Origin: a virus
IMG/VR virus record: IMGVR_UViG_3300035114_000028
Location: 1 to 34,443 of that record
DNA length: 34,443 bases
Strand: one strand, 5' to 3'
Positions 6,302 through 25,892 of this stretch are shown piece by piece. Under the pieces are notes generated by a model. The model was not told the DNA's origin, searched no databases, and worked only from the letters and a program-made list of their open reading frames with translations. A program made the position numbers and the translations under genes. Position 1 is the stretch's first letter; each line of letters starts with the position of its first letter.

Positions 6302-6628
6302 CTATTCACCGCTCCGTCGCGCGGTGCGCAGAGCGCGCATCTCGCCCTCGATGTTGGACAGGCGTCGCTCCAGGTGCAGATCGGTCTCGCTGAGTCGCGC
6401 ACCTCCGACCTCCAGGTTTCGCACGGCCGCCTCCAGTCGCGCCAGGTCGTCGTGGATTTCCTTCGTGAAGGCCGGGAATTCGGTCGCCAGGAAGCGGCGG
6501 CCGATCGCCACGATGCCGACCATGGCGATGATGCCGGCCACCGCCTGAACGATCAGCGCGCCCTGGGCAACGTCGACGAGGTGATCCGACGCAGCCTGTG
6601 CGATGAGAAGGAAGACGTTGACCATCAT
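6302..6628 (-). CDS. Membrane-anchored coiled-coil protein, 108 aa
   Basis: A hydrophobic N-terminus and a second hydrophobic stretch (VAGIIAMVGIVAIG, about residues 30-43) are followed by a long charged helix with leucine heptads (about 55-105). It is likely a membrane protein with a coiled-coil tail on one side. The ATG at 6628 overlaps the TGA of the 1846-aa gene upstream (ATGA), so it is probably co-translated with the virion gene series and starts the small membrane-gene cluster. Confidence 0.75.
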   Translation of the reverse strand: MMVNVFLLIAQAASDHLVDVAQGALIVQAVAGIIAMVGIVAIGRRFLATEFPAFTKEIHDDLARLEAAVRNLEVGGARLSETDLHLERRLSNIEGEMRALRTARRSGE

Positions 6629-9600
6629 CGGACGTGCTCCCGAGCGCCGGGGATCCCGAGCATTTCCTCTTCGCCGAGCTGCTCCAGGAAGCCGCCCCGC
6701 GCCTTGCGCTTCCGGGTCTCGATCTCGGGCACCTTGAAGACGCCGTCGACGCCGAGCCCGCCCCAGCCCGCCTGCTGCTCCAACATCTCGGCAGTGGTGC
6801 GGGGCTTCTTCTGGTCAAGGATGCGGGCCGCCCGCTGGACATCGGGTGGAATCGTCATGCCCCGCTCGATCGAGCCGAAGAACTGCGAGGGGTCCTCGCG
6901 CAGGGTCCGTGCGGCGGTGAGCGGTTCCTCGAAGAATGGCACCTGCTCTGCCACGCCCCAAGCGGCGTTCCCAAGCCCAGCGGCGAGCGTCGTCGCTCGG
7001 AACAGCGACGCCCCGATCTGGAGCGCCTCAACGGCGGGATGATGCAGGAGCATGTGCGGGACCGTGACGCCCGCGATGCGGACCTCGCCCGGCGGAAGCT
7101 CGCTCTCCCGACGGTGCTTCCCCGGCTCGTAGTAGCCGCCCGCCTCGACGACGCCGGTGGCCCCCAGGGCGATCAACCCCGCCCCCAGGGAGCCCTTCTT
7201 CAACTGGCGCATGATCTGCTCAGCTTCGGCCGCCGGCAGCTTGTCGAGCCCGTCGCGCACTGCGGCGCCGAGCCGGGCCATCCCCTTGGGGAGCCCCAGG
7301 GCGTAGTCGGTCACCTCCAGGGCGTAGTTCGTCGGCACCTTGACGATGGGCATGAGGACGCGGCCGGCCGTCTTCCCGCCCTTCGCCACCAGCGACTCGC
7401 CGGGCTCGCTCGCCAGGGCCTTATTGAAGGCGCGCACGGCCGCGTTGTCGCCCATGAAGATGTCCCGCGTGGCGTACTCCCAGGCGCGGGCCTTCATCTC
7501 CTCCTGGGCGACCGGATTCAGCAGCATGTCGGCCTCGCCGCGACCGAGGTACCACTGCGCCTGCTTTTCCATCGCGTACTGGTAGCCGGCAACGCGGGCG
7601 GGCCCCTTGAGGGCGGTGTGCACTCTGCCGGGGTACTCCATCCAGGAGGGGACCCTCTCGCCGTAGCCCGCGTGGCTCTTGAAGGCCAGCTCCATCGGGG
7701 TCTCGCGGCCGGCGAGGCCCGCCTTCATCTCCGCCCGTGCCTGCTCGCCGAAGAAGGCCCCGTAGCTCTTGGCGATGGCCGACATCGAGCCGCCGCCCTC
7801 GATCGGCGCCTTGGCGGCGACCTTCGAGACCCCCGGGAGCTTCGAGAGGCCGGCCCCGATGAACTCCTCGATCGGCTTGAAGACCAGTGCCCGCTCTGAA
7901 GCGGCAGCAGCGATCTTCTGGAGGGTCGCAGTCCCGGTCAGCTTCAGGAACCGGCCCCACCCAGCGGTCCAGTCCATTCCCTTCTCCAGGGCGCCCCGGT
8001 TCGCCATCTCTCGCCGGCGGATGATCGTGTCCGCTTGGCGCTGGAGGCCGCGGACTTGGCCTCGGGCTGCGAGTAACTCGGCGTCGGCGGCAACAGGGGC
8101 GCGACCCTTGGGGATGAACTCTCCGGTGGCGATCTGCTGCTGCAATTCCGCGATGCGGGTGGCTACTCGCTTCTTGGCCCCGCCGAGGCGCTCGGGCTCC
8201 AGCATCGGACCGCGCCCCGAGCCAGGGTTTACCAGATCGACTTCCCAGCGCGCCACCTCGCCCTCCAAGAGCTTTCGCGTATCCGGGTCCAGGTTCGGTG
8301 CCTGGAGCCGCTCCTTGGCGTTGGCGAGGGCGGCCCGGACGCGCGACTCCCGGCTCACGAGGACGCCCTGCTCCTCAAGGGTCTTCTCTAGCTTGGCCCG
8401 CAGGGCCTCTGTTTCGGGCGACGTGACGCGCGGCCGGCGGCTCGGGAGGACGCCGCGCTCGGCCCGTTGCAGGCGCGTCTCCAGCGCGGCCTTGACGCGG
8501 GCGAGCCGCTGCTGATCCGTGGCGGCCGGCTTCAGCCGGAGATCTTCGGTCACCTGCTGGAGCTTCGTCCGCAACGCCGCCACCTCGGGGGATGGTGCAG
8601 CATGGGGCGCCGCGGCCGAGAGGCCCTCGCCCGCGTAAATGTCGTCGAGCTTGTTGAGCAGCTTCGCTTGCGACCGGAGGCGCGCATACTCCTTGACCGC
8701 CTCGCTCTGCGCGGCCTTCTGCGCTTTGGGGCCGGCGCCAGCGATGACATCGCGGATGTCCCGGGGCTCCAGATCGGCCAAGTAGGGCTTCGTCTCCTGA
8801 TAGATCCCGTCCACGAGGTCGGCCACGCTGGTCGTCCCGGCCTGCACTCGGTTCTTCGCCATCTTGGCGATCAAGCCGGCCAACTCAGGGTCGAGACCGG
8901 CCCGCGGCGTTGCGGCTCGCTTCGCGAAGGCTTGGGAGAGGGTCGAATATTCCGCGTCGAGATCCTGCCTGGAGGCCGCGCGCTTGCCGCTCCGACCGGC
9001 CTTGGCCGCGGCGCCCTGCTCCGACCGGATCACCCGCAGCGCCTCCAGCTCCTGGGCGCGCTCTTCGGCGGCGGTCGCGCGAGCCTGAGCCAGCTCCAGC
9101 TGCGCCGAGATCTCGGTCAGCTTCTGGCGGATGGGCTCGGGCGCCTCGACTCCTTCGTTCGCCACCCGGTAGCGCTGCGTCAGGTGCAGCGGCGAGTAAT
9201 CCTCAGCGATGAGCTTTTGACGAGCACGCAGCGCGCGGCCCGACTCGGAGCCGCCAAGGTCCAGCGCGCGATCGTTCAAGTCCTTCGCCTGCTCGATCGA
9301 CTGCCGACGGATCCGGGCAAGCGCCAGGGCCTCCTGGTCACCGCTCTGGAGCGCCGCCTCCTCGGCGGCGAGAGCCCCCTTGTGGTCGAGCGTCATCTGC
9401 ATCCGGTCGTGGAGGAGGAGGTCGTTTTCCACGTCGGAGATCGGGCGCGGCTTCGCGGTCAGGTGCTGGGCGAGCGTCCGCGGCGCCTCCGGGTCCTGCT
9501 CGAAGATGGTCTTCGCCTCAGCCCAGGTCGCGCTGTCCTTCTTGGCAAGGTTCTCGATCTCGGGGAGCCCCTCCGCGAGCCTCTCGGCCCGCGTGACGGC

Positions 9601-12165
9601 GTGCTTGGTGCCGGTCGTGAGGCCCGGAGGAGGCGGCTCCATCCCAGGGAGCGGCTCGCTCTCTGTAGGCGGCTCCGGAAGGCGGCGCGGGCCGAGGGCC
9701 GGCTCCGGGCGCTGGATGGTCGGCGCGAGCGGCTCCTCCTGACCCAGGAAGAGGCCCTCGCGGACGATGGGCCGCGGGGCAGGGGACGGAGCCTGGCCCA
9801 GCTCCGCCTCGACAGCGGAAGAGGCCGGCGGGGGCTCCGCGAGGGCGAAGAGGCTGGCTTGGCCGGGATCCTCGGCGAGCGCCTCGCGCAGGAGGTCGAG
9901 CTTGGACGGTGCGGCTCGCCCCCCGAAGAGGCCGGCCTGCTCGGGGTGGCCCACGCCCTCGGCGAGGCTCGCGTAGCGGTCGAGGATTCCCGCCACCCGC
10001 GCGCTGCTGCGACCGTTGGCGTCGAAGATCGCGAGGAGCGCCCGGGACTCGGGGGTCAGTTCGGAGCCGAAGAGCCCGCCCTGGGCGAGGTAGTCGGGGA
10101 CCTTGGTCCCCTCCTGCCGCAGGGCCGAAAGCTTGCGCAGGGCGGCGCCGATGTCGTCGGAGATGTCGAGCGGGTGAAGCCGGCCGGCCGCCACGTCTTC
10201 CCGCAGGCGGGCGAAGCGGGGAGCCTCGCGGAATAGGGCGTTGCCGACGCCGCGGACGTTCGAGTCGGCGTGCTCGACGAGCTGGGCGACCGCGTCGGCG
10301 TCGCCGTAGGCTCGCGCGAGCACCGCGTTCTGAAGCCGGCGGTGGCCCTCGGCCGAGAGGAGCCCCCTGGCGTCGTACATCGCCCCCACCTCGGTCGTCG
10401 GGACCTGCTGGGTGAAGGCGCGCACGAAGTCGCGATTCGCCTGGAAGTTGACCTCGCCACTCTCGGGGATGCGCAGGGAGTCGAGCATCGCGGGCGTGAT
10501 GCGTTGGGCGTCCGCCGCAGCCTGCTCGGTCGCGCTCATCCGGGCCAGTGGCGCCTCGTTGGCCTCCGCGGCGAAGGCGGCGCGGTCAACGGGCGTCCGC
10601 CGCACCCTGACCAGCACCGGCTCTCGGCGGGCAGCTACCTCGACCGGGTCGACCCCGAAGCGCGGCGCGTTCGCCTCCAGCCAGCCCCGGTACCGGTCGG
10701 CGCTCTCGCCGCCCCGGCGGTAGGCGCGCTGGAGAGCGATTGACCGGGCATTGCCCGACTCCACGATCCCGTCCGGGCCGACGATCGGAGCCCCGGTACT
10801 CGCGTGAGGGCTCTTCCCCAGCAGCTCAGGGTTCAACTGCCGTTCGATCCGGTCCACCTGGGCTTCGGACGCCACCCGGGAGCGGTCCCGCGGCTGAAGC
10901 TCGGCAGGATAGTCAGGCCGCGGGCGCATCGCCACGTCGTGGGAGGTCACGAGGTCGGAGGCGTCGCGCACCTCGTAGTCGAAATCGATGGCGGTGCCGC
11001 GCTCGGTAACCGCGCGGCGAGGAACGGGCGGGAAATCGCGCTGTGCGCCCCCAGGCGCCCCGATCTCCGCAGGAGGTGGTGGAGGTGGCGCTGGCTCCGA
11101 AGCCCGCGCAGGGGCCGCCTGGCGTGGCAAGGCGGGGCCTTCAGGCTGTCCGCCCCCTTCCCCCAGGATTTCGTCCAGCGAGGGACGCCCCGCTGGCGGC
11201 GCGAAGTGGCCGGACCCGAGGTCGTGGGCGTAGCGCTCGGTCGCGACCTCCGTAGCGCGGTCGCCAGCCTCGACCGCCTGCGCCTGGATGTCGGCAAGCT
11301 CCGCCGGGGAGGGCTTGGCTTCGTGGAGGCGTGCCAGGGCCGCGTCCACGCTGGCGCGCATTTCGGGGTTGGCCCGGCGCTCGGCGACCTTGACGGCGGG
11401 AGCGGCGAGAGGCTCGACGACCGCGTCTGCCAATTTGGCACCCACGCGGTGGGCCGCTGCGGCACCCTCGCCGAGGGGAAGGAAGGCCCCGAGCCCGAGG
11501 GCGATCGTGTCGGCGGCGGCAACCGTCTCGGGGGCGCCACGTGAGGCGCGGAGCCGCTCGGTCGCCGCATCGGCTTGGCGCCGAATGTCCTCCCGCCCCG
11601 CCTTGAGGTCGAAGAAGCCGCCCGGCTTGCCGATCGTCGGATACTCCGTCGGCACCCGGGACGGACTCTCGCCTCCAGGTCCGAGCCCAGGGTTGATGAG
11701 ATCCTGCCAGGCGTTGTAAGCCTTGGCGCCGACCTCTGGAATGGAGACGATCCAGTCGGCGGCTCCAGTGACGAAGCGGTTGCCGAGGGCGGCGGCGCGG
11801 TCGAGGGGGCCCTCCTCAGGCTCCGCCCCCAGCCCAGGCTCGGCGCCGGGAATAGGCTTCGGCTGGCCGGTCTTCGTGTCGAGGATCCCCACGTAGCGGT
11901 TCGGATGGTCGTCCGCCTTGAAAGTGCTCGGCCAGTGGCCTGTCGCGGGGTCCGGCTCGGCACCAGCGCGGAAGGCGGCGCGGTAGTCGTAGTGATGGCG
12001 CGGATCGTCCGGGTTCGGGTCCAGGTTCAGGCGCTTCGCGCGCTCTGCGTACCAGGCCCGGAAGCGCGCCTCTTCGTCGCTCGCGGCGGAGACGCCATAC
12101 CGGGACTGCCAGCCGGGCGTCGGTTCGGCGGCGGAGCTCCCGAGGTAGCGATCCGTCCAGCTCAC
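6625..12165 (-). CDS. Giant internal-virion / polyvalent-type protein, 1846 aa
   Basis: This is the largest gene of the window. Residues ~34-95 carry FRAWYAERAKRLNLDPNP, YDYRAAFRAG and GHWPSTFK, an N-terminal signature common in large phage structural or ejection proteins. Residues ~395-525 match a DdrB-like ParB domain (SHDVAMRPRPDYP, LQPRDRSR, GPDGIVESGNARSIALQRAY), typical of polyvalent proteins that phages inject with their DNA. It is followed by a helical region with EGHRRLQNAVLARAYG. Pro-rich linkers lie at ~320-385 and ~730-850, and long Ala/Glu/Arg coiled coils fill ~860-1420. The last ~430 residues contain hydrophobic stretches (GLIALGATGVVEAGG, near 1660) that may insert in membranes. 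The GTG start overlaps the upstream stop (GTGA). The virion role is inferred from size, position and domains; no lysozyme or polymerase domain was recognised. Confidence 0.93.
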   Translation of the reverse strand: MSWTDRYLGSSAAEPTPGWQSRYGVSAASDEEARFRAWYAERAKRLNLDPNPDDPRHHYDYRAAFRAGAEPDPATGHWPSTFKADDHPNRYVGILDTKTGQPKPIPGAEPGLGAEPEEGPLDRAAALGNRFVTGAADWIVSIPEVGAKAYNAWQDLINPGLGPGGESPSRVPTEYPTIGKPGGFFDLKAGREDIRRQADAATERLRASRGAPETVAAADTIALGLGAFLPLGEGAAAAHRVGAKLADAVVEPLAAPAVKVAERRANPEMRASVDAALARLHEAKPSPAELADIQAQAVEAGDRATEVATERYAHDLGSGHFAPPAGRPSLDEILGEGGGQPEGPALPRQAAPARASEPAPPPPPPAEIGAPGGAQRDFPPVPRRAVTERGTAIDFDYEVRDASDLVTSHDVAMRPRPDYPAELQPRDRSRVASEAQVDRIERQLNPELLGKSPHASTGAPIVGPDGIVESGNARSIALQRAYRRGGESADRYRGWLEANAPRFGVDPVEVAARREPVLVRVRRTPVDRAAFAAEANEAPLARMSATEQAAADAQRITPAMLDSLRIPESGEVNFQANRDFVRAFTQQVPTTEVGAMYDARGLLSAEGHRRLQNAVLARAYGDADAVAQLVEHADSNVRGVGNALFREAPRFARLREDVAAGRLHPLDISDDIGAALRKLSALRQEGTKVPDYLAQGGLFGSELTPESRALLAIFDANGRSSARVAGILDRYASLAEGVGHPEQAGLFGGRAAPSKLDLLREALAEDPGQASLFALAEPPPASSAVEAELGQAPSPAPRPIVREGLFLGQEEPLAPTIQRPEPALGPRRLPEPPTESEPLPGMEPPPPGLTTGTKHAVTRAERLAEGLPEIENLAKKDSATWAEAKTIFEQDPEAPRTLAQHLTAKPRPISDVENDLLLHDRMQMTLDHKGALAAEEAALQSGDQEALALARIRRQSIEQAKDLNDRALDLGGSESGRALRARQKLIAEDYSPLHLTQRYRVANEGVEAPEPIRQKLTEISAQLELAQARATAAEERAQELEALRVIRSEQGAAAKAGRSGKRAASRQDLDAEYSTLSQAFAKRAATPRAGLDPELAGLIAKMAKNRVQAGTTSVADLVDGIYQETKPYLADLEPRDIRDVIAGAGPKAQKAAQSEAVKEYARLRSQAKLLNKLDDIYAGEGLSAAAPHAAPSPEVAALRTKLQQVTEDLRLKPAATDQQRLARVKAALETRLQRAERGVLPSRRPRVTSPETEALRAKLEKTLEEQGVLVSRESRVRAALANAKERLQAPNLDPDTRKLLEGEVARWEVDLVNPGSGRGPMLEPERLGGAKKRVATRIAELQQQIATGEFIPKGRAPVAADAELLAARGQVRGLQRQADTIIRRREMANRGALEKGMDWTAGWGRFLKLTGTATLQKIAAAASERALVFKPIEEFIGAGLSKLPGVSKVAAKAPIEGGGSMSAIAKSYGAFFGEQARAEMKAGLAGRETPMELAFKSHAGYGERVPSWMEYPGRVHTALKGPARVAGYQYAMEKQAQWYLGRGEADMLLNPVAQEEMKARAWEYATRDIFMGDNAAVRAFNKALASEPGESLVAKGGKTAGRVLMPIVKVPTNYALEVTDYALGLPKGMARLGAAVRDGLDKLPAAEAEQIMRQLKKGSLGAGLIALGATGVVEAGGYYEPGKHRRESELPPGEVRIAGVTVPHMLLHHPAVEALQIGASLFRATTLAAGLGNAAWGVAEQVPFFEEPLTAARTLREDPSQFFGSIERGMTIPPDVQRAARILDQKKPRTTAEMLEQQAGWGGLGVDGVFKVPEIETRKRKARGGFLEQLGEEEMLGIPGAREHVR

Positions 12166-13949
12166 GGGGGCACCGGCCTCCAGCTATCGCGCTGGCGAAT
12201 TCCGAGCACGATCTTGCCGAGCGGCGCGCCGTTTCGGAGTTGCCCGAGCGTCCAGTTGAGCAGGTCGCCCTCGAGGGGTCCGAACTTGGCCTCGATCGCC
12301 TCCAGTTGCTGTCGGGCGCGGCTGTCCAGCGGCGGCTCAAGGTCGGGGGAGCGGTACCCAGGTGGCGCATTCCGCGCGGCATTGACTGCGGTCTCGAAGT
12401 GCGAGCCCTCGAGCTGACCTTTTTCCGCCAGCGAGACGACGCCGTCGCGCATGAAATCAAGGCGGCGCCCATACTCATCATCAAGGCGCAAGGGCTTGCC
12501 CGCCCCCTTGGCGGCCCGCAGCAGCGCATCGGCCTCGTCCGGGGACTTGCCGCCGGCGCGCACCAGGACCGTCCGAGCGGCCTCTTCGGCGCTCTCGCCA
12601 GGGACGCCAAACTTGGCGCGCTGCTTCGGGTCGGACAAGTCCCGCAGCATCTGCCCGACATCGTGGATCTCCAATGGGTCGAGCTTCCCGGGCGCAGCGC
12701 TCCGGGTTGATGGCGCCGCCGTTGGCGTTGGGCGCTGAGGGGCAGCCTTCGCAGCCGGCGACTTGGGCTCCGCCGCCTTCTTGGGCGTCGACGGCGCGTA
12801 ACTGCCAGCAGGGAAGCCCATCGCGGCAGCGGCGAGGCCCGCAGATGACGGCGCTGGAGGCGGGGCCGCCTTCTTTGTCGACGGCGCTGGAGCGCCCGGA
12901 GCCGGCAGATGCCCCTCCTCGTGGAGCTCGACCGGGAAGGCGCCGAGCTGCGGCCGGTTCTTGTCCTGCACGTAGCGCTGCCCGTCGATCGTGAAGTAGG
13001 TGTACTCGCCGACGCTCTGCGGCTGACCGTCCAGGGGGGCGAAGCTGCCGTGCGGGTGTTCCTTGTCGGGCGGCGCGAGCCAGCCCCAGGTTTCGCCCAC
13101 TTTGCCGATCTTTCCAGCGACGCCGCCGGCGCGCGTGGACTCGTGCTTGTCGCGGATCGACTCCACCAGCTCTGTGCGGGCCGCAATGCGATCGAGCGGC
13201 TCGTACTGCGGCGGCTCCCAGAGGACGCCCTTGTCGCGCTGGGCGACGCGCTTCGCTGTCTCGGCCTCGGCGTCGATGCGCGCTTTCTCCTCCAGGCGGG
13301 CCTTCTCGCCCTCGTCCCAAGCCTTCTGATCGTTCAGCCGCTTGGTCTCGGCCTCCAGCTCGGCCCGGATCCGCTCCCCGACCGCGAATGCGTCCGGGTT
13401 GTAGCCCTTGGCCCTGGCGGCGTCGCGCATCGGCCGCTCGGCGTCGAGCTTCGTCAGCTCTGCCATCGAGCCCGCGCGAGCGGCGGTCTCGGCCCGCTGA
13501 GCAAAGGGGCTGTCCGGGGCTTCCCCCTCGGTCACCCGCTGGTACATGCCGTAGAGAGCCGACGCCTCCTGCTGGTGCTTCGCCTCGGCCGACGCTGCCG
13601 CCCGCTGTTCGTTCTCCGCCTGCCACTGCGCTTCCTGCCGTGCATTGGCGCCGGCGAGGGCACGGTCCTGCGCCGCCTGGATGTCGCCGATCCCGGCCAC
13701 GGCCCCTCGGCGATCCCCGGAGAGGTTGGCGCCGAGAGCCGCGAGGCCCGCCCAGAGCGATTCCTGCTGCGCCTGGCGCCGATCCGGCCCCTGAAGGTCG
13801 CGGAGGTTCGTCACCGGGGCGGGGCGGGGGGCGGGAGCCGCTGCGGGCTCGCCGAGAGCGCCTACCAGGTCCTCCAGGGTGAGCTGCGACAGCCGGCGCG
13901 GCGCAGGGGCGCGGTAGGAGGCACCGAAGCCTCCGAGCCCCCAGGCCAT
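12162..13949 (-). CDS. Coiled-coil internal virion protein candidate, 595 aa
   Basis: No enzyme motif is visible. Residues ~55-90 (LWAGLAALGANLSGD and following) form an Ala/Gly-rich helix. Residues ~95-270 are charged helices with coiled-coil character, ~335-430 are a Pro/Ala/Lys-rich low-complexity linker, and ~430-595 form a further helical domain. This design, small hydrophobic N-terminus plus long helices and linkers, resembles DNA-ejection proteins of podoviruses. It lies just upstream of the 1846-aa protein, with a GTGA overlap. The ATG has an AGGAGG ribosome-binding site. Its upstream region is shared with the divergent plus-strand island. Confidence 0.85.
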   Translation of the reverse strand: MAWGLGGFGASYRAPAPRRLSQLTLEDLVGALGEPAAAPAPRPAPVTNLRDLQGPDRRQAQQESLWAGLAALGANLSGDRRGAVAGIGDIQAAQDRALAGANARQEAQWQAENEQRAAASAEAKHQQEASALYGMYQRVTEGEAPDSPFAQRAETAARAGSMAELTKLDAERPMRDAARAKGYNPDAFAVGERIRAELEAETKRLNDQKAWDEGEKARLEEKARIDAEAETAKRVAQRDKGVLWEPPQYEPLDRIAARTELVESIRDKHESTRAGGVAGKIGKVGETWGWLAPPDKEHPHGSFAPLDGQPQSVGEYTYFTIDGQRYVQDKNRPQLGAFPVELHEEGHLPAPGAPAPSTKKAAPPPAPSSAGLAAAAMGFPAGSYAPSTPKKAAEPKSPAAKAAPQRPTPTAAPSTRSAAPGKLDPLEIHDVGQMLRDLSDPKQRAKFGVPGESAEEAARTVLVRAGGKSPDEADALLRAAKGAGKPLRLDDEYGRRLDFMRDGVVSLAEKGQLEGSHFETAVNAARNAPPGYRSPDLEPPLDSRARQQLEAIEAKFGPLEGDLLNWTLGQLRNGAPLGKIVLGIRQRDSWRPVPP

Positions 13950-14233: not shown

Positions 14234-16501
14234 ATGGACCGGCACGATTGGACCTACGACGGCACCGATTTCTACGCCGAGGCCGTCCTTGGGAAGCCGC
14301 GTCTCTTCGAGGGGTTCGGCACCACTTCCGCGCCCCGACCGGCCCGGAGCCTTGCCCTGGAAGCGACCGCCGCGGAGATCTTGCACCTCGCCCGGCGCGT
14401 CGAAGACCTTGAAGCCGAGGACGTCGCCACCGCAGAGGGTCAGGAAATCATCGGCGAGCTTTCCGCCGCCCTGGCAGTCCTCGCCGGGGAGAGCCTGAAG
14501 CCCTGCACGGAGCCCTGCCCCGGCCACCTCGGGCCGAAGGCCACGGAGGCGGTGAAGGCGGCCCTGGCGGCGTGGCACGCGCTCCAGGAGGGCAACCGCG
14601 CGGCAGCGGAGAGGATCAAGGCCCTGGAGCGCGAGCGCGAGCAATGGAAGGACGGAGCACTTGGCGAGCGCGACCTTGGGGCGGAACTCCTGGCTGCCCT
14701 CCAAGAGGCGGGACTCGCCCACACCAAGCTCACCGAGAACGTGCGCGCGCTGAAGGCCCGCGTCGCCGAACTGGAAGCCCACGAGAACGCCACCCGCAAG
14801 CAGCTCCGCATCGAATGCGCTGAGCTGGGCGACAACGACTGGCCCGACGATCTCCACCTCGCCGACGTGGTCGAGAAGCACCTGGCGCGGCCGGCGGCGG
14901 CCCGTATCGATGAGCTGGAGGAGGAGCGAGACGACGCGCGAGGGGCCAAGGAACGACTGGAAGGGGAGAACCGCAACCTGGAATCCAGGAACCGCGAACT
15001 GCTGGCGCTCATCGCACAGCAGAAGGAGGACAGCTCGCGGTTCGCTGAAGCTGGCCGCACGATTCGCGATCTGGAGGAGGAGAGCCGGCGCCTGCGCGAG
15101 AGCGAGCGCTCCTGGCGCGAGGCGGCCGAGTACCACAGCGCCGACGTGAAGCGGCTGCTCGCCCCGGAGCCCACCCGGTACTCCCCCGCCGTTCCCATGG
15201 ATCGCCTGCGCGAGGAACAGGGCCGGGTAAGCGCAGCGATGCGGGCCTACCTCGACTTCCAGCCGCGGTTGAGCCGCCCCGGGGCCGACGTGGCGACCTT
15301 CAAGGGCGAGCCCCTCACTCCCGACGGCGTTGACGCCCTCTTCCCGGAGCGCTACGGCAAGCCGCCCGGTCCGTGCACTCACCCCTGCCACACCTACAGG
15401 GGACTCGAATGCCCGCAGTGTGGCGAAGGGCTTGAACACGACGAGCCGGTTGCTCGCCCCGCCGACGGCGAGAAGATCCCCTGCCAGGGACCGCCCCCGG
15501 CCGTCGTCGAGGGGGCCGAGAGCGTCTTCGCGGTGACCGCGCGCGACCCCGCCGACCAGCCGCTGGCGGATGTCGTCGCTGCCATCCTGAGCCGTTACCG
15601 GCCGACGCCAGAAGAAGACGAGCGGATAGCCAATACCCTCGCGGCGAGCGTCCTCGATGGTCGACCGCTCGAAGCGGAGGACCTTGACGATCCCGAGCGG
15701 GACCCCTTCGACCGCGAGCTGGAGCGGCTCCGGAGGCGGGCCACCCGCCTCGACGCCCTGCTCGCCAGCGAGGAGGTGCCGGAGGGGCTGCTTGCCACGC
15801 TGGACGGGCATCTTCCCGAAGAAGATCGGATCAACGGTGGCATGGCCGCCCGTCTCTGCTGGGATTGGTTCCGGGAGCAGTTCGGGGACGAGAAGGTCCG
15901 GGTCGTCGCCCGCGACCCCGAAGAACGGCCGCTCGCCGAGATGGCCGAGAAGATCCTGAACCGCGATCCCGGCGCTCCCGAAATGTGGGAGAAATGGCGC
16001 GCGGCTTCCGAGGCGAGCGAGGTCTACCGGCTGCGGCGCGCCATCAACACCGCGCAGCGCGAGCTTCGGACCTGGGTGAGCGAGCAGCCGATCCGGCCCG
16101 GCTTCCCGGGCGCGATGGACCGGCTGCTGACCATCGCGGACGCGCTTCTCGCGGCACTGGACAGCCCTGCCGACCAAGTGGTCGCCGACCTCTTCGCCGA
16201 CATGGTCGACCGCTCGCGGGCGTGGCGCGCCGCGGATGCCGCCGAGGATCGGGCCACTGCCGAGGCGGTCTTCGGCCCGGAGGTGGCGGAGGCTCTCGAC
16301 GGCGGGCAGGCGACCCGCACCGCGCTCGACGTGGCAAAGAAGCTGCGGGATATAGCGAAGGCCTTGGGCGACACGGAACCTTACGATACTCACACCGCCG
16401 AGCGGAGACTGGCCCGCGAAATCGAGGACGGCACGCTCTGGACCGTCAAGCCTGGGCAGTACACCCCGGGGGTCGCCGCCAAAGAGGATGAGTACCGGTA
16501 G
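14234..16501 (+). CDS. Coiled-coil protein with zinc-ribbon-like motif, 755 aa
   Basis: A large protein of unknown function, coded opposite to the surrounding virion genes. Residues ~100-300 are a long charged coiled coil. C381, C385, C393 and C396 (PCTHPCH...CPQC) form a zinc-ribbon-like site, and a partial echo, CTEPC, lies at C91-C95. Two related segments, VTARDPADQPLA (~434) and VVARDPEERPLA (~557), each followed by a helix, indicate an internal duplication of about 120 residues. There is no signal or membrane segment. The start follows the previous stop directly, with GGGGAGG upstream. It ends 7 bp from the opposing gene's stop. Confidence 0.88.
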   Translation: MDRHDWTYDGTDFYAEAVLGKPRLFEGFGTTSAPRPARSLALEATAAEILHLARRVEDLEAEDVATAEGQEIIGELSAALAVLAGESLKPCTEPCPGHLGPKATEAVKAALAAWHALQEGNRAAAERIKALEREREQWKDGALGERDLGAELLAALQEAGLAHTKLTENVRALKARVAELEAHENATRKQLRIECAELGDNDWPDDLHLADVVEKHLARPAAARIDELEEERDDARGAKERLEGENRNLESRNRELLALIAQQKEDSSRFAEAGRTIRDLEEESRRLRESERSWREAAEYHSADVKRLLAPEPTRYSPAVPMDRLREEQGRVSAAMRAYLDFQPRLSRPGADVATFKGEPLTPDGVDALFPERYGKPPGPCTHPCHTYRGLECPQCGEGLEHDEPVARPADGEKIPCQGPPPAVVEGAESVFAVTARDPADQPLADVVAAILSRYRPTPEEDERIANTLAASVLDGRPLEAEDLDDPERDPFDRELERLRRRATRLDALLASEEVPEGLLATLDGHLPEEDRINGGMAARLCWDWFREQFGDEKVRVVARDPEERPLAEMAEKILNRDPGAPEMWEKWRAASEASEVYRLRRAINTAQRELRTWVSEQPIRPGFPGAMDRLLTIADALLAALDSPADQVVADLFADMVDRSRAWRAADAAEDRATAEAVFGPEVAEALDGGQATRTALDVAKKLRDIAKALGDTEPYDTHTAERRLAREIEDGTLWTVKPGQYTPGVAAKEDEYR

Positions 16502-16508
16502 GCGCACG

Positions 16509-18140
16509 CTATCCGCCCACGTAGCTGGCGTTCCAGTTGACGGGCCCGGAAGTCTGCCCGGAGTAGACCGGGCGGCTGCGGCTCTGGTAGGCACCGGCCA
16601 TCTGGCCGCCGATGGCGGCCCCGGTGAGCGCCGCGCCCGCTGGGCTGGCGTAAGCCGGCGGCGAGCTTGAGCGCGTGTCCCGCCCCTGGGTCGTCTCGGA
16701 GCCATAGGGGCCGTACAGGTTGCCCAGGATCGACGTGTAGGACGAAAGACGGGCGAAGGGGTCGTAGAACTTCTCTCGGTCGAAAGCCAACTCAGCCCGC
16801 CCCAGGCCAATGTTGCCGCGCCCGACGGACTCCGACCCCCTCGCCGCGAGATAGGAATTGCGCGCCTCGTCCGATCCGAGAGCGAGCTGTCCGGCCGCCC
16901 CGAGATCACCCCGGCGAGCGGCGCCGATGTCCGTAACGCCACCCAGGGCCGATCGCTGATCCCCGGACACCAGCCCGGCGAGGTCGCCGAGCGTCGACGC
17001 CTTGCCGAAGCGGCCCTGCTCGCCGAGCCCCAGCATGTCGCCCAGGTAGCCGTACTTGGCGAGCTTCTCGCGGCTCGCAAGCTCGGCCGCCGCCGCCCCC
17101 GCCGATGCGCTGGACGCCCGGTCCCCGGCCGCGATATTCGCCATGCCGAGATCGTACTGCGTCCCAAGCCCCAGGGCATCGCTGAATGCCTTGTAGCGGG
17201 CCGCGCCCAGGGAGTCCGCCAGCTCCTGGTCACCCTGGGCGATGGCGCCCTCCTCCAGTTGCTTGTAGAGGTCCCCGCCGTAGAAGCCGGAGCCCACGGA
17301 GCGCGCTCGCAGCTCGCGGATGTTGGCGGCCCGACCCTCGTTGACCTTCCGCGAGATGGCATCCTCGGCGGCGGTCCAGCCCTGGGGGGCCTCGCCGGCG
17401 ATCAGCTTGCGCAGGGCCACATCGACGCCCGTGCGGCTGGCGGAGGACGACGGGTCGTGCCCGCCCTGGATGACGGTACGGGGCGCCGCCAGCGCCGCCG
17501 CCGCGCCGGTCAGACCGCCCGCCCGCCCGCCGCCCGCAGGGCCCCCGATCCCGAGATCCGCCATCAGCGCGTCCTGGTAGGCCGCGAGCCGCGGGTCCTC
17601 GGCGATGGCGTTGGAGGCGGTCTCGGCGCGGCCGATCAAAGGGTTCGTCGCGTCGCCGGCGAGGGACGAGGTCACGTACTTCTCGCCAGCGCCGTAGAGC
17701 CCCGCGTTGTTCTGGTCGAGCTTGCTCAGGCGGCCGATGATGTCGGCGGTCTCCGGGCTCTGGCCCTTGAAGGGGGCGGGCGCACCGGTCGCAGTCGTCG
17801 CGGGCGCACCGGCGGAGGCCGTGCTCCCCGCCGCGGCTGGCACCCACACCCCGGCCTTGTTGAAGCGGCCGACACCCGGCTTCGCAACCGGCTTCGTCGG
17901 AGCGTTGGGGTCACCCCGCACCGCCGCTGGCGCCGTCGAGGTGCCGAAGAGGGTGTCGTAGGCTGCCTGGCGGCCAGCGTCGAGGTAGGGGTCCATCCCC
18001 GGGGCCGGCGTCCGGGTCGTCGTGGTGTTCACGTCCCCTGCGCCCTTGGCGAGCTTGGCGTTGGCCTTGTTGCTGCTCTTCTGGCCGGCGTAGGAGACCA
18101 CGCCGCCGATGACCGCGCCCGCGACCATGCCCCAGCTCAT
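16509..18140 (-). CDS. DNA-ejection / internal core protein candidate, 543 aa
   Basis: The N-terminus MSWGMVAGAVIGGVVSYAG is a glycine-rich hydrophobic segment followed by a Lys/Asn/Ala stretch (KSSNKANAKLAKGAG). This is the hallmark of small internal-core and ejection proteins of podoviruses (T7 gp14-like or P22 gp7-like in style). The rest is Ala/Gly/Ser-rich with helices, lacks catalytic motifs, and ends in a low-complexity Ser/Pro/Gly tail containing another hydrophobic Gly/Ala stretch (AGAALTGAAIGGQMAG). The ATG overlaps the cupin gene's stop (ATGA). Function is inferred from composition and from its place between tail and large virion genes. Confidence 0.87.
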   Translation of the reverse strand: MSWGMVAGAVIGGVVSYAGQKSSNKANAKLAKGAGDVNTTTTRTPAPGMDPYLDAGRQAAYDTLFGTSTAPAAVRGDPNAPTKPVAKPGVGRFNKAGVWVPAAAGSTASAGAPATTATGAPAPFKGQSPETADIIGRLSKLDQNNAGLYGAGEKYVTSSLAGDATNPLIGRAETASNAIAEDPRLAAYQDALMADLGIGGPAGGGRAGGLTGAAAALAAPRTVIQGGHDPSSSASRTGVDVALRKLIAGEAPQGWTAAEDAISRKVNEGRAANIRELRARSVGSGFYGGDLYKQLEEGAIAQGDQELADSLGAARYKAFSDALGLGTQYDLGMANIAAGDRASSASAGAAAAELASREKLAKYGYLGDMLGLGEQGRFGKASTLGDLAGLVSGDQRSALGGVTDIGAARRGDLGAAGQLALGSDEARNSYLAARGSESVGRGNIGLGRAELAFDREKFYDPFARLSSYTSILGNLYGPYGSETTQGRDTRSSSPPAYASPAGAALTGAAIGGQMAGAYQSRSRPVYSGQTSGPVNWNASYVGG

Positions 18141-18734: not shown

Positions 18735-19298
18735 TTACGCAACCTCCTCGAACGCTGCCACCGCCAGGAGCACGTCCAGGTCATTGGCGTTGGTGTCGGG
18801 GTCGGTGCGCCCCAGGGCGAGCCGCACCACCTCGCGAGGACTCGAAAGGACCGGCGAGCTGGTCAGAACGGCCGAGGTCTTCATGGGGGTGCCGGCCACG
18901 GCGGGCCCCGGGGCGGTCCAGGCGACCGAGAGTCCCGCACCCGCTATGGCACCGCCGGCATCGTGCGTCCACATGACCCCCTGGAACGAGAACGTCGCCG
19001 TGCTCCCGACCGGGGACGTGTACCAGACATTGAACCGTAGACGGGTCCGGGGCCAGAGCGCGCGGCCTGCAACCACGCGGCGGGCAAAGGTCGTGGCGCC
19101 GTTGGGGAAGCGCATCACCAGCGCGTTGTTGACGTCAACCTCAGTCACGGCGCCGAAGTAGGCGCAAGCCCCGGCCGCAAACTCGACGTTGAAGTACCCC
19201 TCGTCAATGACCCGGTGGAGCACCCGCTCTTTCTCCGAGCGAATCGAGTCGGCGGTCTTCACGTCCTGGGCTGGGAGCGACAGGCTGATCGGCTTCAC
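18735..19298 (-). CDS. Virion beta-rich protein candidate, 187 aa
   Basis: The sequence alternates short hydrophobic and polar strands (RLRFNVWYTS, TATFSFQGVMW) and lacks charged helices apart from the N-terminus, suggesting a beta-sandwich, as in phage fibre or decoration proteins. No family is recognised. The GTG at 19298 overlaps the stop of the upstream tail gene (GTGA), and the cupin gene starts one base after its own stop. Its position points to a tail-associated or appendage protein. Confidence 0.8.
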   Translation of the reverse strand: MKPISLSLPAQDVKTADSIRSEKERVLHRVIDEGYFNVEFAAGACAYFGAVTEVDVNNALVMRFPNGATTFARRVVAGRALWPRTRLRFNVWYTSPVGSTATFSFQGVMWTHDAGGAIAGAGLSVAWTAPGPAVAGTPMKTSAVLTSSPVLSSPREVVRLALGRTDPDTNANDLDVLLAVAAFEEVA

Positions 19299-20842
19299 CG
19301 CAGCACGTCCTCGTCAAGCCAGACGCCGAGGAAGTTCTCGAGCAGGGCGGGCGATAGGAAGATGCGGAGCCGGAAGAAGCGGCCGGCGAGCTGGAACGGA
19401 TACCAGCCGCCGACCGTGTCCCGCTGCGAGTAGGTGCGCGGCCCTTCTGTCGCAAAGCCGGTCTGAAAGGGGTCGAGGGCTGCTTCCAGGTTGACCGAGG
19501 GCTGCGCTGGGGAGCTGCTGAAGGGGGCTTCCTTGCTGAAAATCGGGAGAACGCCGCGGATGATCGACTGCGCCTGAGTCCCTACCTGCTCGAAGTTTGC
19601 GGAACGAAAGCGCAGCTCCAGGATGATCTCCTGGTAGTCGCTGACGTTCGAGCCGTAGGAATACCGGGCATATCTTGTAGTCGGCTCGTTCCACGTGAAG
19701 GCGGAGACCGAGTCGTAGAGGTCGCCGCCGCCCTTGCGGCTGAGGAAGGCGCCCAGGAACTGCGGCTGCGCGTCGCCATGGCCCCACCGCTGGGAGACCG
19801 GGTCGTAGAGGAGGACGTGCTCGGAGCCGATCCCGACAGCGTCGTCGCGCGTGCCCCAGCCGATCAAGGGCAGGCCAGCGAAGCAGAACGCCTCGGCCTG
19901 GGTGTCCTCCTCCCAGGGCTCGACGCCGCGCGGCTCGATCGTGAAATTGGTCGCGAGCAGGAAGTTGTCAACGCCCGGCGGCGAGATCTTGACCGGCGCC
20001 GAGAGCCCGGAGATCTGGTAGAAACCGTCCGGCCCCAAGAAGAAGACCCCGTAGCGGGTGCGGATGATCGAGGCCGGGAAGGCGCAGCCGATCGAGTCGG
20101 AGAGAATGTCGGGCCGCAGAACCTGCGTCGTCCCGGTGTATTCGAGATAGAAGATCCCGCCGCGCTTGAAGGCCAGCCCGTACTGCCCCCCGAGAAGGCC
20201 GGTGATTTGACCCGGGATCGAGGTCAGCCGCTTGGACCCGGCGATCGAGGTCGAGGTCGCCGTCGGCGGGTCGAAGTTCAAGGCATTATCGGCGTCGCTC
20301 CAGACGACCTCGTCCTGAAAGCGCCCAGCGTTCGTCAGGTTGGCCGCCACGAGGTGCTCGCGGATCGGCGCGATGAAGCGGGGGATGGGCTTGAAGGTCG
20401 ACGTGAAGGCGTCGGCGAACGCGCCAGTGTTGTTGGTGCGGCGCTGGGCAGCGTCGAGCCAGTTGACCGCGAAGACGTCGTTCCCGACACTCGCGTAGCG
20501 CCAGCCAGCCGGCGAGCCCGCCGCCGAGTAGCCGCCGCCCCGGGATAGGTTCGTGAAGGCCCCCGTCGCCGGATCGACGCTGTAGAGCTTCGTCTTCGAC
20601 CCGGTGAAGAGGGTCTGCGCATCGGGCGTGTACGAGGACGACGCCAGCCCCGAGGCCCAGAGGTGCGAGTAGGAGCCCAGCATGGGCCCGTCGGCGACCC
20701 CGGATCCGACCTCCGTGAATTTTCGCCACGGACGCCCCACAGATCCGAAGCCGGGGTAGAGGTTCGAGGCGACCGCCCAGCCCTCGCCGAAGTAGCCGCC
20801 CCCGGGGCTCCATCCATCGAATCCGATCCAAACCGGAGGCAT
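19295..20842 (-). CDS. Tail nozzle / beta-propeller-like structural protein, 515 aa
   Basis: It contains repeated short beta units such as LGSYSHLWASG, TKLYSVDPATG, VVWSDADNALNFDP and GVFFLGPDGFYQISG, the type seen in podovirus tail nozzle (tubular protein B-like) and other propeller-fold tail proteins. WSDADN...F and GPDGFY are recurrent in that class. It has no signal and no membrane segment. The correct start is ATG at 20842, which overlaps the upstream stop (TGATG). A longer open frame upstream has an Arg/Pro-rich composition that is clearly shadow. It probably attaches below the adaptor, but assignment rests on motif style and position. Confidence 0.85.
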   Translation of the reverse strand: MPPVWIGFDGWSPGGGYFGEGWAVASNLYPGFGSVGRPWRKFTEVGSGVADGPMLGSYSHLWASGLASSSYTPDAQTLFTGSKTKLYSVDPATGAFTNLSRGGGYSAAGSPAGWRYASVGNDVFAVNWLDAAQRRTNNTGAFADAFTSTFKPIPRFIAPIREHLVAANLTNAGRFQDEVVWSDADNALNFDPPTATSTSIAGSKRLTSIPGQITGLLGGQYGLAFKRGGIFYLEYTGTTQVLRPDILSDSIGCAFPASIIRTRYGVFFLGPDGFYQISGLSAPVKISPPGVDNFLLATNFTIEPRGVEPWEEDTQAEAFCFAGLPLIGWGTRDDAVGIGSEHVLLYDPVSQRWGHGDAQPQFLGAFLSRKGGGDLYDSVSAFTWNEPTTRYARYSYGSNVSDYQEIILELRFRSANFEQVGTQAQSIIRGVLPIFSKEAPFSSSPAQPSVNLEAALDPFQTGFATEGPRTYSQRDTVGGWYPFQLAGRFFRLRIFLSPALLENFLGVWLDEDVLR

Positions 20843-21234
20843 CAGTAGGAGAAGCTGTTCCCCAGGATGTCGCCGCGGCCGTCTGCCCGCTCGGCCTCGG
20901 TGCGCAGCTCGCCGACGACGGTGTAGGTCAGGGTGGGGTGCCGGATCTGGAGGGCCGCCGGGTCCGAGCACACCTCGTAGGCGCCCCGGAAGAGGCCGTC
21001 GATGGTCTTGTTGGGGCAGTAGACGGTGAAGCGCTTCGTGTAGGTCACCCCGAAGACGACGCGCGTCTCCTCGTAGGTCAGCGTGCAGTACTTCTCCGTC
21101 GAGGGCTGGCGCTGGAGGGTGTCCTCGACCGAGCATTGCCGATCCACGAGCTTCCCGGCGACCGTAACCGTCGCGGCGCCGAGCACGGCGGGGAAGAGAC
21201 CGAGAAAGGTGACAACGGCGAAGAGTGGACGCAA
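20842..21234 (-). CDS. Exported small protein, 130 aa, TTG start
   Basis: A perfect AAGGAGG site seven bases upstream of TTG at 21234 fixes the start. Residues 1-~20 (RPLFAVVTFLGLFPAVLGA) are a Sec signal peptide. The mature part is beta-rich with four cysteines, including VDRQCSVED and VYCPNK. A signal peptide in the midst of tail genes is unusual and suggests that the product goes to the host envelope rather than the virion. Function unknown. Confidence 0.82.
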   Translation of the reverse strand: MRPLFAVVTFLGLFPAVLGAATVTVAGKLVDRQCSVEDTLQRQPSTEKYCTLTYEETRVVFGVTYTKRFTVYCPNKTIDGLFRGAYEVCSDPAALQIRHPTLTYTVVGELRTEAERADGRGDILGNSFSY

Positions 21235-22264: not shown

Positions 22265-22999
22265 TTACCGGGCGCCAGGAAAGATCGTCTGGAGGCGCGC
22301 CGAGGGCGAGGCGCGGTAGTTGTCGAAGGCGTTGGGGGTGCAGACCACGGCGTTCATGGCCTGGCGCTTCTTGCCCGCCTCTCGTAGGCGCTCAAGAGCG
22401 ATCTGTGCCGAGTTGCCGTGAGCGTCCGCCATCTCCGGCCGCTGGTCGGGCGAGGTCATGAAGTAGTCGGCCCAGACGAGATGGCGGAGGGCGACCTTGC
22501 CCGTGGTGAACCAGGGGTTGGTTGCGGCGCCGTCGCTGACAGTGATGGTCGTGCCGGAGCCCGCGTCCTTCGTGGCGTCGAGGATCACGTCCCACTTGAC
22601 GGTGTAGGCACCGGCCGGGGCTGGCCCGAACTGGAGCCGCTCCTCGTACCAGCAGGCGCGGATCGGGTACGCCTGGGAGGGCCGCTCCTGGTAGGCGCGG
22701 ACGGTGTCGGGGTCGACTGGATCGATCGGACGAATGGTCGTGCCGAGGTCGTAGTAGAGCCGCTCGAAACGGAGCAGCCCCTTGGGGAAGCCAGCGTCGC
22801 CGTGCTCGTAGCTGGCCTTGTCGAGGACGGTCAGGAAGCTCCCCGACTTCTCCATGAAAGGGATGATCTCGGGGGCGAGGTTGCTGAGCTGGCGAACGAC
22901 TGCGGCCGCAAGAAGGGACCGGGTGGAGGGGTGCGAGTTGAGCACCCCCGCCACCAGGCCATCGGGAGAATCGAGCAGGGCCGCGAAATCGTCGGGCAT
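22265..22999 (-). CDS. Head-tail adaptor candidate, 244 aa
   Basis: The protein begins with a helical domain (residues ~1-60), has a mixed middle with Trp/Tyr/Arg stretches (RACWYEERLQFGP), and ends with a helix and polar tail (ALERLREAGKKRQAMNA, then FDNYRASPSAR). This pattern resembles adaptor or head-completion proteins in podovirus-like phages, where a helical bundle docks on the portal. Its position two genes after the capsid gene fits that role. Similarity is of style only; no diagnostic motif is present. Confidence 0.78.
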   Translation of the reverse strand: MPDDFAALLDSPDGLVAGVLNSHPSTRSLLAAAVVRQLSNLAPEIIPFMEKSGSFLTVLDKASYEHGDAGFPKGLLRFERLYYDLGTTIRPIDPVDPDTVRAYQERPSQAYPIRACWYEERLQFGPAPAGAYTVKWDVILDATKDAGSGTTITVSDGAATNPWFTTGKVALRHLVWADYFMTSPDQRPEMADAHGNSAQIALERLREAGKKRQAMNAVVCTPNAFDNYRASPSARLQTIFPGAR

Positions 23000-23488: not shown

Positions 23489-24661
23489 TTACACGCTCGG
23501 CGTCGCCGCGGTCACGTAGTAGCTGATGGTGGCCGAGCCGAACCGCTGAAGGTTCCCGGCGGGACCGGCGATGGTGGCGACGGCGCCGGCGTGGGTGAAG
23601 AACTTCCAGCCGGTGCGGAGGTACTCCTCGTGGAAGCTGGCCTTGATGTGCGCCGACTCGGCGTCAAAGCCTTGCCCCCACTTGTGGTGCATCGCCATCT
23701 GACCGAGCAGCATCAGGCGGCGAACGTTGCCGATCTGGGTGCCGGCGGTCGTGGCGCCCGGGGTCGAGCCGGACTGACCGAAGGGCGTGTAGTCATCCAC
23801 CAAATACAACACCCGCCGCGTACCCTGGAAGCCGCTGTTTGCCTGCATGAAGCTCGCGACCTTGTCCGGAGCGTTGCCGCCCTGGATTTCCGCCAGCGTC
23901 AGGCTCATGATGCGGTTGGTGGTCGAGTGCCGGGTGAGCTGCTCCATCCCCTCGCTGTCGCAGATCGCGACGAACCAGGTGCCCCAGGGGGTCTTGGCGG
24001 GGACGAGCGGCGAGAGGACGCCGGAGGCCCGATTCTGGAGGGCGGTGATGACGGTCTCGACGTACTCGACCGTGAGGATCGCCGATGTCGTTCCCGCCAC
24101 GCCGCTGTCGGAGGTTTGACCCCCCGTCCAGAACCTGTGTTTGGTGTCCATCTCGGTCACGTCGTTGCCAAACGGCGAGACCGGCCAGAGCGAGCCGGAC
24201 GAGTTGTAGGCCGTGATGCCGGCCAGGTGGTAGTACTCGCTGCGGCAGATCAACTCCGCCGCCTCTGCGCCGCAGTTCTGGAGCTCCTTGCGCTCCAGCG
24301 GCACATTGGTGTAGGTCTGGCCCGCGACGAGGTTCTCGAAGAAGCAGGACGACAGCTCCTGCGCCTGCATGTTCATGTCCTGCTCGTAGACCGGGCGCTG
24401 ACCGGTCTCCTGACCGAAGCCGGTGCCGCCCAGGGGCTTGGGGGCGAGCTGCTGACCGCGGAAGCGGTCGCCGTAGTAGAACGTCACCTTCGAGGCCCGG
24501 CCGTCGTTGTTGCCGACCTCCTGCCTGTCCTCGGTGACGATCACGCTCTCGTCGCTCTTGCCGTAGAGCTTGGGCGCGAGGCACAAGTTTTCGGCGAAGT
24601 TGGTCACCCTCGCAGCCCACATCTGCTGCACGAGGACCGAATTTTCTGGAATTGCGGCCAA
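23489..24661 (-). CDS. Major capsid protein, 390 aa, TTG start
   Basis: The sequence has the style of the N4 gp56-like / DUF4043 type capsid proteins: PENSVLVQQMWAARV at the N-terminus, TFYYGDRFRGQQ, an alpha/beta core with NRASGVLSPLV and RRLMLLGQMAMHHKWG, and a C-terminal beta strand (SATISYYVTA). Position between scaffold-side and adaptor-side genes supports the call. I chose TTG at 24661 because GGAGG lies exactly eight bases upstream (24670-24674). The earlier GTG at 24682 has no ribosome-binding site and adds only MRLEDSP. The capsid promoter is unmapped but must lie in the 264-bp gap before it. Confidence 0.85.
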   Translation of the reverse strand: MAAIPENSVLVQQMWAARVTNFAENLCLAPKLYGKSDESVIVTEDRQEVGNNDGRASKVTFYYGDRFRGQQLAPKPLGGTGFGQETGQRPVYEQDMNMQAQELSSCFFENLVAGQTYTNVPLERKELQNCGAEAAELICRSEYYHLAGITAYNSSGSLWPVSPFGNDVTEMDTKHRFWTGGQTSDSGVAGTTSAILTVEYVETVITALQNRASGVLSPLVPAKTPWGTWFVAICDSEGMEQLTRHSTTNRIMSLTLAEIQGGNAPDKVASFMQANSGFQGTRRVLYLVDDYTPFGQSGSTPGATTAGTQIGNVRRLMLLGQMAMHHKWGQGFDAESAHIKASFHEEYLRTGWKFFTHAGAVATIAGPAGNLQRFGSATISYYVTAATPSV

Positions 24662-24925
24662 GGGGGAATCCTCCAGGCGCACGTTGCGCCGGTTGATCCC
24701 GTGCTGGAAGTTACCCTTTCAGGCCAGCGCGCCGGGGCGGGGAACCCGCGGCCCCTCGGTCTGCCGCGCGGTCGAGAGATGAGGCTCAAGTCGAGCGGTG
24801 ACGGGTCGCTCGGGCTCTCGCGCGGTGCCGGTGTGTTGGCGGATAGTGTCGCGCCATATTGGCACGAGTGTCTAGCGGGGTGCGGGGGCTGGACACGGGC
24901 ATGGCGCTGGCCGTACTATGGCGGC
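24662..24925. promoter_or_regulatory. Divergent capsid / island control region
   Basis: This 264-bp gap lies between the divergent capsid (minus) and regulator (plus) genes. It contains AGTGTC at 24845-24850 and again at 24867-24872, 22 bp apart, flanking the near-palindrome GCCATATTGGC (24853-24863). An inverted GACAC at 24892-24896 lies inside the candidate plus-strand -35. A GC-rich hairpin (GCGGG/CCCGC, 24737-24749) lies in the probable capsid leader. A weak capsid-side promoter could be TAGACA (24869-24874, minus strand) with CACTAT (24843-24848), but the spacer is 20 bp. The repeats look like an operator for the regulator at 24926. Confidence 0.55.
24890..24919 (+). promoter_or_regulatory. 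Candidate sigma70 promoter for the island operon
   Basis: TGGACA (24890-24895, one mismatch to TTGACA) and TACTAT (24914-24919, matching four of six bases of TATAAT) are 18 bp apart. A start site seven bases after the -10 would fall on the A of the ATG at 24926. No ribosome-binding site precedes that ATG, so a leaderless mRNA is predicted. This is sequence reading, not a measured start. Confidence 0.5.
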
Positions 24926-25497: not shown

Positions 25498-25892
25498 GCG
25501 AGGGCTTCTGGCAGATCGATGAAGACGCCCTCACGGGGCCTATCCTGGCAATCGTCACCAAGGCCGTGGACGAGGAGATCTACTGCGCCATCCGGGATCT
25601 GCTGACCACCGACAACCCCGATTTCCTGCTCTGGGGGTTCAGCGTTCCAGCGGGGCAGGAGGAGCCGCTCCTGATCTTCACCGTCGAGGGACGTGACCGG
25701 CCAGATATCGAGCGGTCGTTCAGCCTCAAGGCGATGGTAGACAGCGCGCTTGAATGGTGCCCCGTGGACGGCACCGATCACCCGGACGAGGAGAGCGAAG
25801 ACCGGCGCGGCCTGGAGGCGATGCGGGCCGCCCTGCTTCGCGAGGCTCGCCGGATCGAGGAGTTTCTGGTGCGGGCGGCGGAGCGGGCATGA
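25494..25892 (+). CDS. Acidic hypothetical protein, 132 aa
   Basis: A soluble, acidic protein with no recognised domain. It has an alpha/beta look: helix at residues ~13-43, strands such as LLWGFSVP and PLLIFTVEG, then a C-terminal helical segment (~105-132). The ATG at 25494 overlaps the previous stop (ATGA), with GGAGG upstream, and it overlaps the Thg1-like gene by four bases. Because it is encoded directly before that enzyme in one operon, it could be a partner protein, but nothing in its sequence shows this. Confidence 0.75.
   Translation: MSEGFWQIDEDALTGPILAIVTKAVDEEIYCAIRDLLTTDNPDFLLWGFSVPAGQEEPLLIFTVEGRDRPDIERSFSLKAMVDSALEWCPVDGTDHPDEESEDRRGLEAMRAALLREARRIEEFLVRAAERA

Follow-up and report, generated by a model that had tools for sequence, protein, structure and literature searches.

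Does a very large protein encoded at the end of a phage late gene series carry a DdrB-like ParB domain into the infected cell, and is that domain a fixed part of the protein that bears it? The question is raised by IMG/VR virus record IMGVR_UViG_3300035114_000028 (34,443 bases of environmental DNA, with no exact terminal repeat of at least 13 bases), which was analysed over its whole length, referred to here as the window, and which encodes a protein of 1846 amino acids (aa). This giant protein probably belongs to the phage-type polyvalent proteins, as a very large internal virion (ejection) protein in a podophage-type phage, with a body at about residues 820-1846 and a DdrB cassette at about residues 385-769. 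This reading is supported by the domain itself, the ParB-type fold predicted for it, the position of the gene among late genes and a syntenic relative that lacks the module. An earlier note on this DNA, made from the sequence alone, had already read the protein as a probable ejection protein, and the late-gene context and the module's relatives in head and ejection proteins lend support to that reading, but the idea was already in print (Iyer et al. 2017; PMC5512222). The proposal of DdrB-ParB domains in injected phage proteins is therefore not new, having been stated there for the domain family, and the giant protein is a further member of a known protein family and not a new class. What appears to be new is the presence or absence of the DdrB module between syntenic phages, together with an N-terminal module that is apparently undescribed.

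The DdrB module and its predicted fold

The giant gene and its parts are listed below, with residue numbers referring to the giant protein.

6625 to 12165, minus strand: giant open reading frame, 1846 aa, open frame with a GTG start
11857 to 12087, minus strand: N-terminal module, residues 27-103, about 75 aa, F..WY..PDDP..YDYRAA..AG..GHWPS.FK..HPNR
10600 to 11001, minus strand: ddrB-ParB domain PF18763, residues 389-522, ParB-type alpha/beta fold in the model
9859 to 10599, minus strand: second half of the DdrB module, all-helical, at residues 523-769 beyond the end of the Pfam profile, delimited by PHROG 5143, conservation and the model
8362 to 9702, minus strand: middle region at residues 822-1268, charged, probably helical and common to three relatives
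6628 to 8238, minus strand: C-terminal region, residues 1310-1846, an undescribed and mostly helical family in four phage contigs including the window

The open frame claimed by the earlier note is present at full length. Its strand, which had been left unstated, is the minus strand, translation of the plus strand over the same interval being broken by stops, and its GTG start overlaps, as GTGA, the stop codon of the gene before it. The claimed DdrB-like ParB domain was supported by a profile search of the protein, in which residues 389-522 matched PF18763 (E 1.1e-35; 122.8 bits, cut-off 27.6) across profile positions 2-120 of 121. Residues 1400-1846 matched no Pfam or PHROG family.

Conservation of the module extends past the Pfam boundary to about residue 769, and PHROG 5143 (function unknown) matches residues 385-769 with an E value of 2.1e-87. 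Across an alignment of 43 modules, which counts the window sequence twice, N536, E547, D552, R610, Y620, E631 and Q695 are kept in 40-42 sequences, and the tyrosine Y492 in all 43. Two traits of ddrB-ParB domains are described in PMC5512222, an extra helix with a conserved tyrosine between the terminal helix and strand, and an Asp or Asn closing strand 2. In the model, Y492 lies in helix 107-123, which is flanked by helix 92-104 and strand 136-142; D465, kept in 42 of the 43 modules, may be the residue of the second trait.

An AlphaFold model of the module, built with 33 sequences (mean predicted local distance difference test score, pLDDT, 89.9), is alpha/beta to about residue 522 and all-helical thereafter. 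When VIA-align was applied to the Foldseek list, the first 12 rows were all ParB, Noc, KorB or PadC (Z 7.2-5.6, with the next row at 4.7), the best being M. xanthus ParB with cytidine diphosphate (90 residues aligned, 2.8 Å, 17% identity), and this row order agrees with the independent Pfam assignment. The model points to a ParB-type fold for the first half of the module. At the sequence level, ParB_N (PF02195) had no match in the window record, and a profile search of solved structures with the DdrB-module alignment returned seven chance-like rows (E 0.089-0.9). GERR and ENxQR are the named motifs of ParB-type CTPases (cytidine triphosphate hydrolases), and both are present in the two chromosomal ParB sequences used for comparison. 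A local hhalign alignment against these, itself not significant, pairs N536 with the N of ENIQR and MSATEQA with LNPIEEA, which is the register suggested by the end points of the structural match. Residues Q424-P425-R426, G471-N472-R474 and N536 may be equivalent to the nucleotide-pocket motifs of ParB.

One option raised by Iyer et al. 2017 is that such a module acts as an injected DNase, nicking or degrading host or rival DNA. Nuclease activity is reported for other members of the ParB/Srx superfamily (PMC5512222), and R474 of GNAR, which is putatively the highly conserved pocket arginine described in the same paper, is invariant across the 43 aligned modules. On the other hand, no acidic cluster suited to metal binding was recognised in the module, its nearest structural rows are CTP-binding clamp domains and not nucleases, and the listing for P1 ddrB gives a nonessential gene that acts in DarB incorporation. 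A DNase is considered unlikely.

Distribution of the module and of the giant body

A tblastn search with the whole protein matched 37 of 50,697 phage records, and among the matches listed all fell within residues 384-769. The matches include P1 ddrB, whose product is a head protein by mass spectrometry (39 peptides; PMC9024508), and epsilon15 gp16-like 'tail protein' genes located beside pilot genes. In both gp16-like proteins scanned, those of Alcaligenes phage Piluca and Acinetobacter phage TPWB-05, an SLT transglycosylase domain precedes the module, the Piluca score of 19.6 bits being under the cut-off of 21.3. Uncultivated viral contigs yielded at least 574 module-encoding stretches from 600 candidates; with near-duplicates removed, 42 distinct modules were obtained, 33 of them in complete open reading frames, most of which (29 of 33) are of 800 aa or more. 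The Pfam domains that accompany the module in 21 giants scanned were ART-PolyVal (four), LPD5, LPD1 and SLT (two each), and LPD38, Glucosaminidase and MuF_C (one each). By eye, two DdrB-bearing giants, L022 6995-14533 and L025 7109-14050, have N-terminal stretches resembling M15-type peptidoglycan peptidases; Pfam gave none at E<=0.01.

The nearest relative of the giant body was found in G001, a contig that is circular by its identical 127-base ends and syntenic with the window. Its terminase large subunit, portal, head protein and adaptor are 60%, 54%, 63% and 56% identical to those of the window, and the gene directly upstream of the giant gene (595 aa in the window) and the giant gene itself follow in the same order. 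The G001 giant protein matches residues 822-1846 (51%) and 112-238 (52%) of the window protein, with only a short linker in place of the DdrB module, and a DdrB profile search with all filters off gave no match in that protein and none in the whole G001 record. As the same giant body occurs without the module in a syntenic phage, on sequence comparison the module behaves as an optional cassette in a shared giant body. Two further contigs are related through the C-terminal region: L022 carries a DdrB module (47% identical, with a body 29-32% identical), and in L102 no DdrB module was found. The module is carried by two of the four related bodies. Third-position GC content (GC3) is alike along the giant protein (0.80-0.92), giving no sign of very recent acquisition of the module. 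Such a syntenic pair, one with and one without the DdrB module, would offer a clean comparison of the module's effect.

A stretch at the N-terminus of the giant protein of G001 (...GAPIGKVI...) looks, by eye, like the C-terminus of the 595-aa upstream protein of the window (...GAPLGKIV...), which suggests a shifted gene boundary or a fusion at the junction of these two genes.

The shared body is charged and mostly helical at about residues 850-1310. Residues 822-1846 had no match at E<=0.01 in phage records, the C-terminal region had no PHROG, and sequence homology to T7, P22 or epsilon15 gp16 was not found outside the DdrB module. The model of the C-terminal region is of low confidence (mean pLDDT 46.6), a profile search of solved structures with the C-terminal alignment A5 gave a single row (E 0.035), and a single-sequence scan of viral contigs gave seven stretches, none of them a relative. 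LPD38 was considered as an identity for this region and rejected, as hhalign against the LPD38-bearing end of L020 was not significant (probability 2.2%) and there was no Pfam match. Of the 'hydrophobic C-terminal stretches' described in the earlier note, one stands, at residues 1659-1677, and the plural does not, the only other 19-residue window with a Kyte-Doolittle mean above 1.2 being residues 214-232.

Late-gene setting and the N-terminal module

Ten window proteins were scanned against Pfam and PHROGs. Read in order along the minus strand, their matches are to a terminase large subunit, a P22-type portal and a major head protein, then, weakly, to an SU10-type adaptor, next to a virion structural protein and a tail-fibre-like protein and, again weakly, to a pilot protein; the giant gene comes last in this late gene series. 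The features concerned are as follows.

31682 to 33553, minus strand: terminase large subunit (phrog_38, E 7.1e-14)
29544 to 31700, minus strand: P22-type portal protein (PF16510, E 1.5e-09)
23489 to 24682, minus strand: major head protein (phrog_334, E 8.4e-05), 63% identical in G001
22265 to 22999, minus strand: adaptor-like protein (SU10_adaptor, E 0.0075, below cut-off)
19295 to 21136, minus strand: virion structural protein (phrog_3287, E 1.7e-17)
16509 to 18140, minus strand: protein of 543 aa with a weak phrog_8693 match ('pilot protein for DNA ejection', E 0.0016)
12162 to 13949, minus strand: 595-aa gene directly upstream of the giant gene, its G001 homologue likewise directly before the giant gene

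Judged by these family matches, the series would be a podophage-type late region, and the giant gene is the last and largest of a putative ejection gene cluster, after the 543-aa pilot-like and 595-aa genes. Because the gene closes a terminase, portal, capsid, adaptor and pilot series, and because relatives of the module occur in gp16-like proteins and in P1 DdrB, the reading as a putative ejection protein is supported by context. Position at the end of the series, beside small membrane and lysis-like genes recognised by eye, would also suit a non-virion cytoplasmic protein that merely ends a structural operon. This is thought very unlikely, given the direct overlap with the upstream gene of the series, the synteny kept in G001 and the occurrence of module relatives in known head or ejection proteins.

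Two plus-strand genes were also noted. An open reading frame of 755 aa (14234-16501), charged and probably coiled-coil, splits the minus-strand series between the pilot-like and 595-aa genes, and a gene for a Thg1-like tRNA(His) guanylyltransferase (25754-26593; best solved relative 4kgk, E 1.5e-44) lies on the strand opposite to the structural genes.

The N-terminal phage signature of the earlier note proved to be a genuine virus-associated module and not a chance resemblance. A degenerate DNA pattern for YDYRAA(F/Y)..AG found 34 stretches in the viral collection, all 34 with flanking elements to some degree (F..W and PD, mostly also HWPS.(F/Y)K and HPN), against two stretches in bacterial and archaeal genomes totalling 257 Gb, both without the rest of the motif. 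An alignment of 23 sequences has 14 invariant columns. In a profile-guided scan 87 of 92 stretches were confirmed, and a profile search gave 115 open reading frames with the module, comprising 75 distinct sequences, 61 of which are in complete frames (35 no longer than 300 aa, 20 of at least 700 aa and six between). Without two doubtful genome hits, L218 and L219, these figures become 73 distinct and 59 complete (34, 20 and five, respectively). Across loci L184-L217 and L222-L298 the module occurs on its own, stands at the front of long proteins and at the end of two proteins of about 520-530 aa (L263, L265), and no locus carried two copies. When the long proteins were compared by blastp at 1e-4, the module region was nearly the sole shared sequence, the exceptions being L191 and L217, which have the same sequence, L212 and L214, which share 229 aa with the module counted in, and L207 and L211, which have another short segment in common.

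Among 60 scanned neighbours of the stand-alone copies are terminase, portal, head closure and internal virion proteins, and the 84 neighbours of all module-bearing genes gave a similar picture, most families in each set occurring once. One module-bearing giant, L212, matches an 'internal virion protein' PHROG (E 3.6e-17). When the N-terminal sequence of the window or of L212 was searched against 50,697 phage records by tblastn, no match reached E<=0.01, and with that of L187 none reached E<=1. With L198 there were two matches at E 0.3-0.5, of which Burkholderia phage Bm1 is unmatched by the module model; the other, L220 5950-6222 of uncultured phage MedDCM-OCT-S45-C18 (T7-like), is a model-matched 90-aa stand-alone copy that sits between a capsid assembly gene and minor capsid protein 10.

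In the window protein, residues 1-110 matched nothing in Pfam, PHROGs or NCBIfam. The 23 members of the module had no significant Pfam match, one member had a weak PHROG match (phrog_5787, E 9e-4), and a profile search of solved structures with alignment A8 gave no row up to E 10. The module was not found in the G001, L022, L102, L020 and L021 records by a scan that had no positive control, and a looser motif search in other loci gave one unconvincing hit. No paper containing the strings YDYRAA or GHWPS was found by a text search, which excludes figures and most subscription papers. It is possible, though doubtful, that the module is an undescribed transferable tag for virion docking or packaging, which as a stand-alone protein would serve the head and when fused would recruit giants and their cargo, here DdrB-ParB, into the particle; the docking role is a guess. 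Packaging into virions has been tested by fusion for the first 30 residues of P1 DarB (PMC9024508). If such a packaging tag were real here, it would offer a sequence handle for the proteins that uncultivated phages carry into cells.

Proposed role and closest known systems

The 1846 aa hold several distinct parts (N-terminal module, DdrB module, helical middle and C-terminal family) and are encoded beside virion genes. The giant protein would be assembled into the head and leave with the DNA, so that the DdrB module would meet nucleotide and DNA at entry. Its first half, with the invariant QPR, GN[A/G]R and N536, would bind nucleotide, and the helical half would then change its contact with DNA or with partner proteins. 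As a result, the entering DNA might be held or guarded, or other cargo might be seated in the head as P1 DdrB helps DarB. A ParB-like, nucleotide-gated switch for binding DNA or a partner is put forward tentatively, as the likeliest of the mechanisms considered, though short of an even chance and with some room left for a function of another kind.

The P1 role, listed as 'Aids DarB addition to capsid' (PMC9024508), is compatible with a narrower function, in which the module is an assembly adaptor only, helping internal proteins into the head with no role after entry; the long conserved helical half at residues 523-769 likewise resembles an interaction surface. Near-invariant predicted nucleotide-pocket residues across unrelated carriers, however, would be needless in a pure adaptor, and the ten window proteins scanned include none recognised as DarB-like. 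This function is considered unlikely. A counter-defence role, raised in the earlier note, would be hypothetical; the listed P1 role is the entry of DarB into the capsid. In Iyer et al. 2017, DdrB-like ParB domains are proposed to be virion-delivered, and nucleoside triphosphate (NTP) sensing or degradation is favoured over a pure nuclease (PMC5512222).

Several results weigh against the giant protein being a polyvalent ejection protein with a ParB-type module. No metallopeptidase domain, the hub of the polyvalent class, was found in it by Pfam, and the C-terminal region has no homology to known ejection proteins and one hydrophobic stretch only. Foldseek alone gave no match at E<=0.001 with the model of the DdrB module, and the best Z of 7.2 falls below 8, where a score may reflect a common arrangement according to the tool's own caution. 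Furthermore, in the hhalign profile comparison of the module with the two chromosomal ParB sequences the local score was not significant and the global one uninformative, and the ParB motifs are only partly kept, with GNAR at 471-474 and only N536 for ENxQR.

Among known systems, P1 DdrB (YP_006491.1) shares PF18763 and a module 36.9% identical over residues 385-765, and resides in the head. The P1 protein, however, has 995 aa with the module N-terminal (ParB domain at 36-167), whereas in the 1846-aa window protein the module is mid-protein, the body is another one and no metallopeptidase part was recognised. The gp16-like proteins of Piluca and TPWB-05 are alike in internal-virion gene position and in the DdrB module (42.3% and 40.8% identity, respectively), but they are of 949-956 aa, carry SLT before the module and have no N- or C-terminal sequence in common with the window protein. 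The ParB/Noc/KorB CTP-binding N-domain resembles the first half of the module in predicted fold, although the window has GNAR for GERR and only N536 of ENxQR, and sequence similarity is not significant. With the phage-type polyvalent proteins described in PMC5512222, the window protein shares a giant multidomain build, DdrB-ParB and a late virion context, differing from them in that no metallopeptidase, ART or LPD was detected by Pfam and in that its body belongs to an undescribed family.

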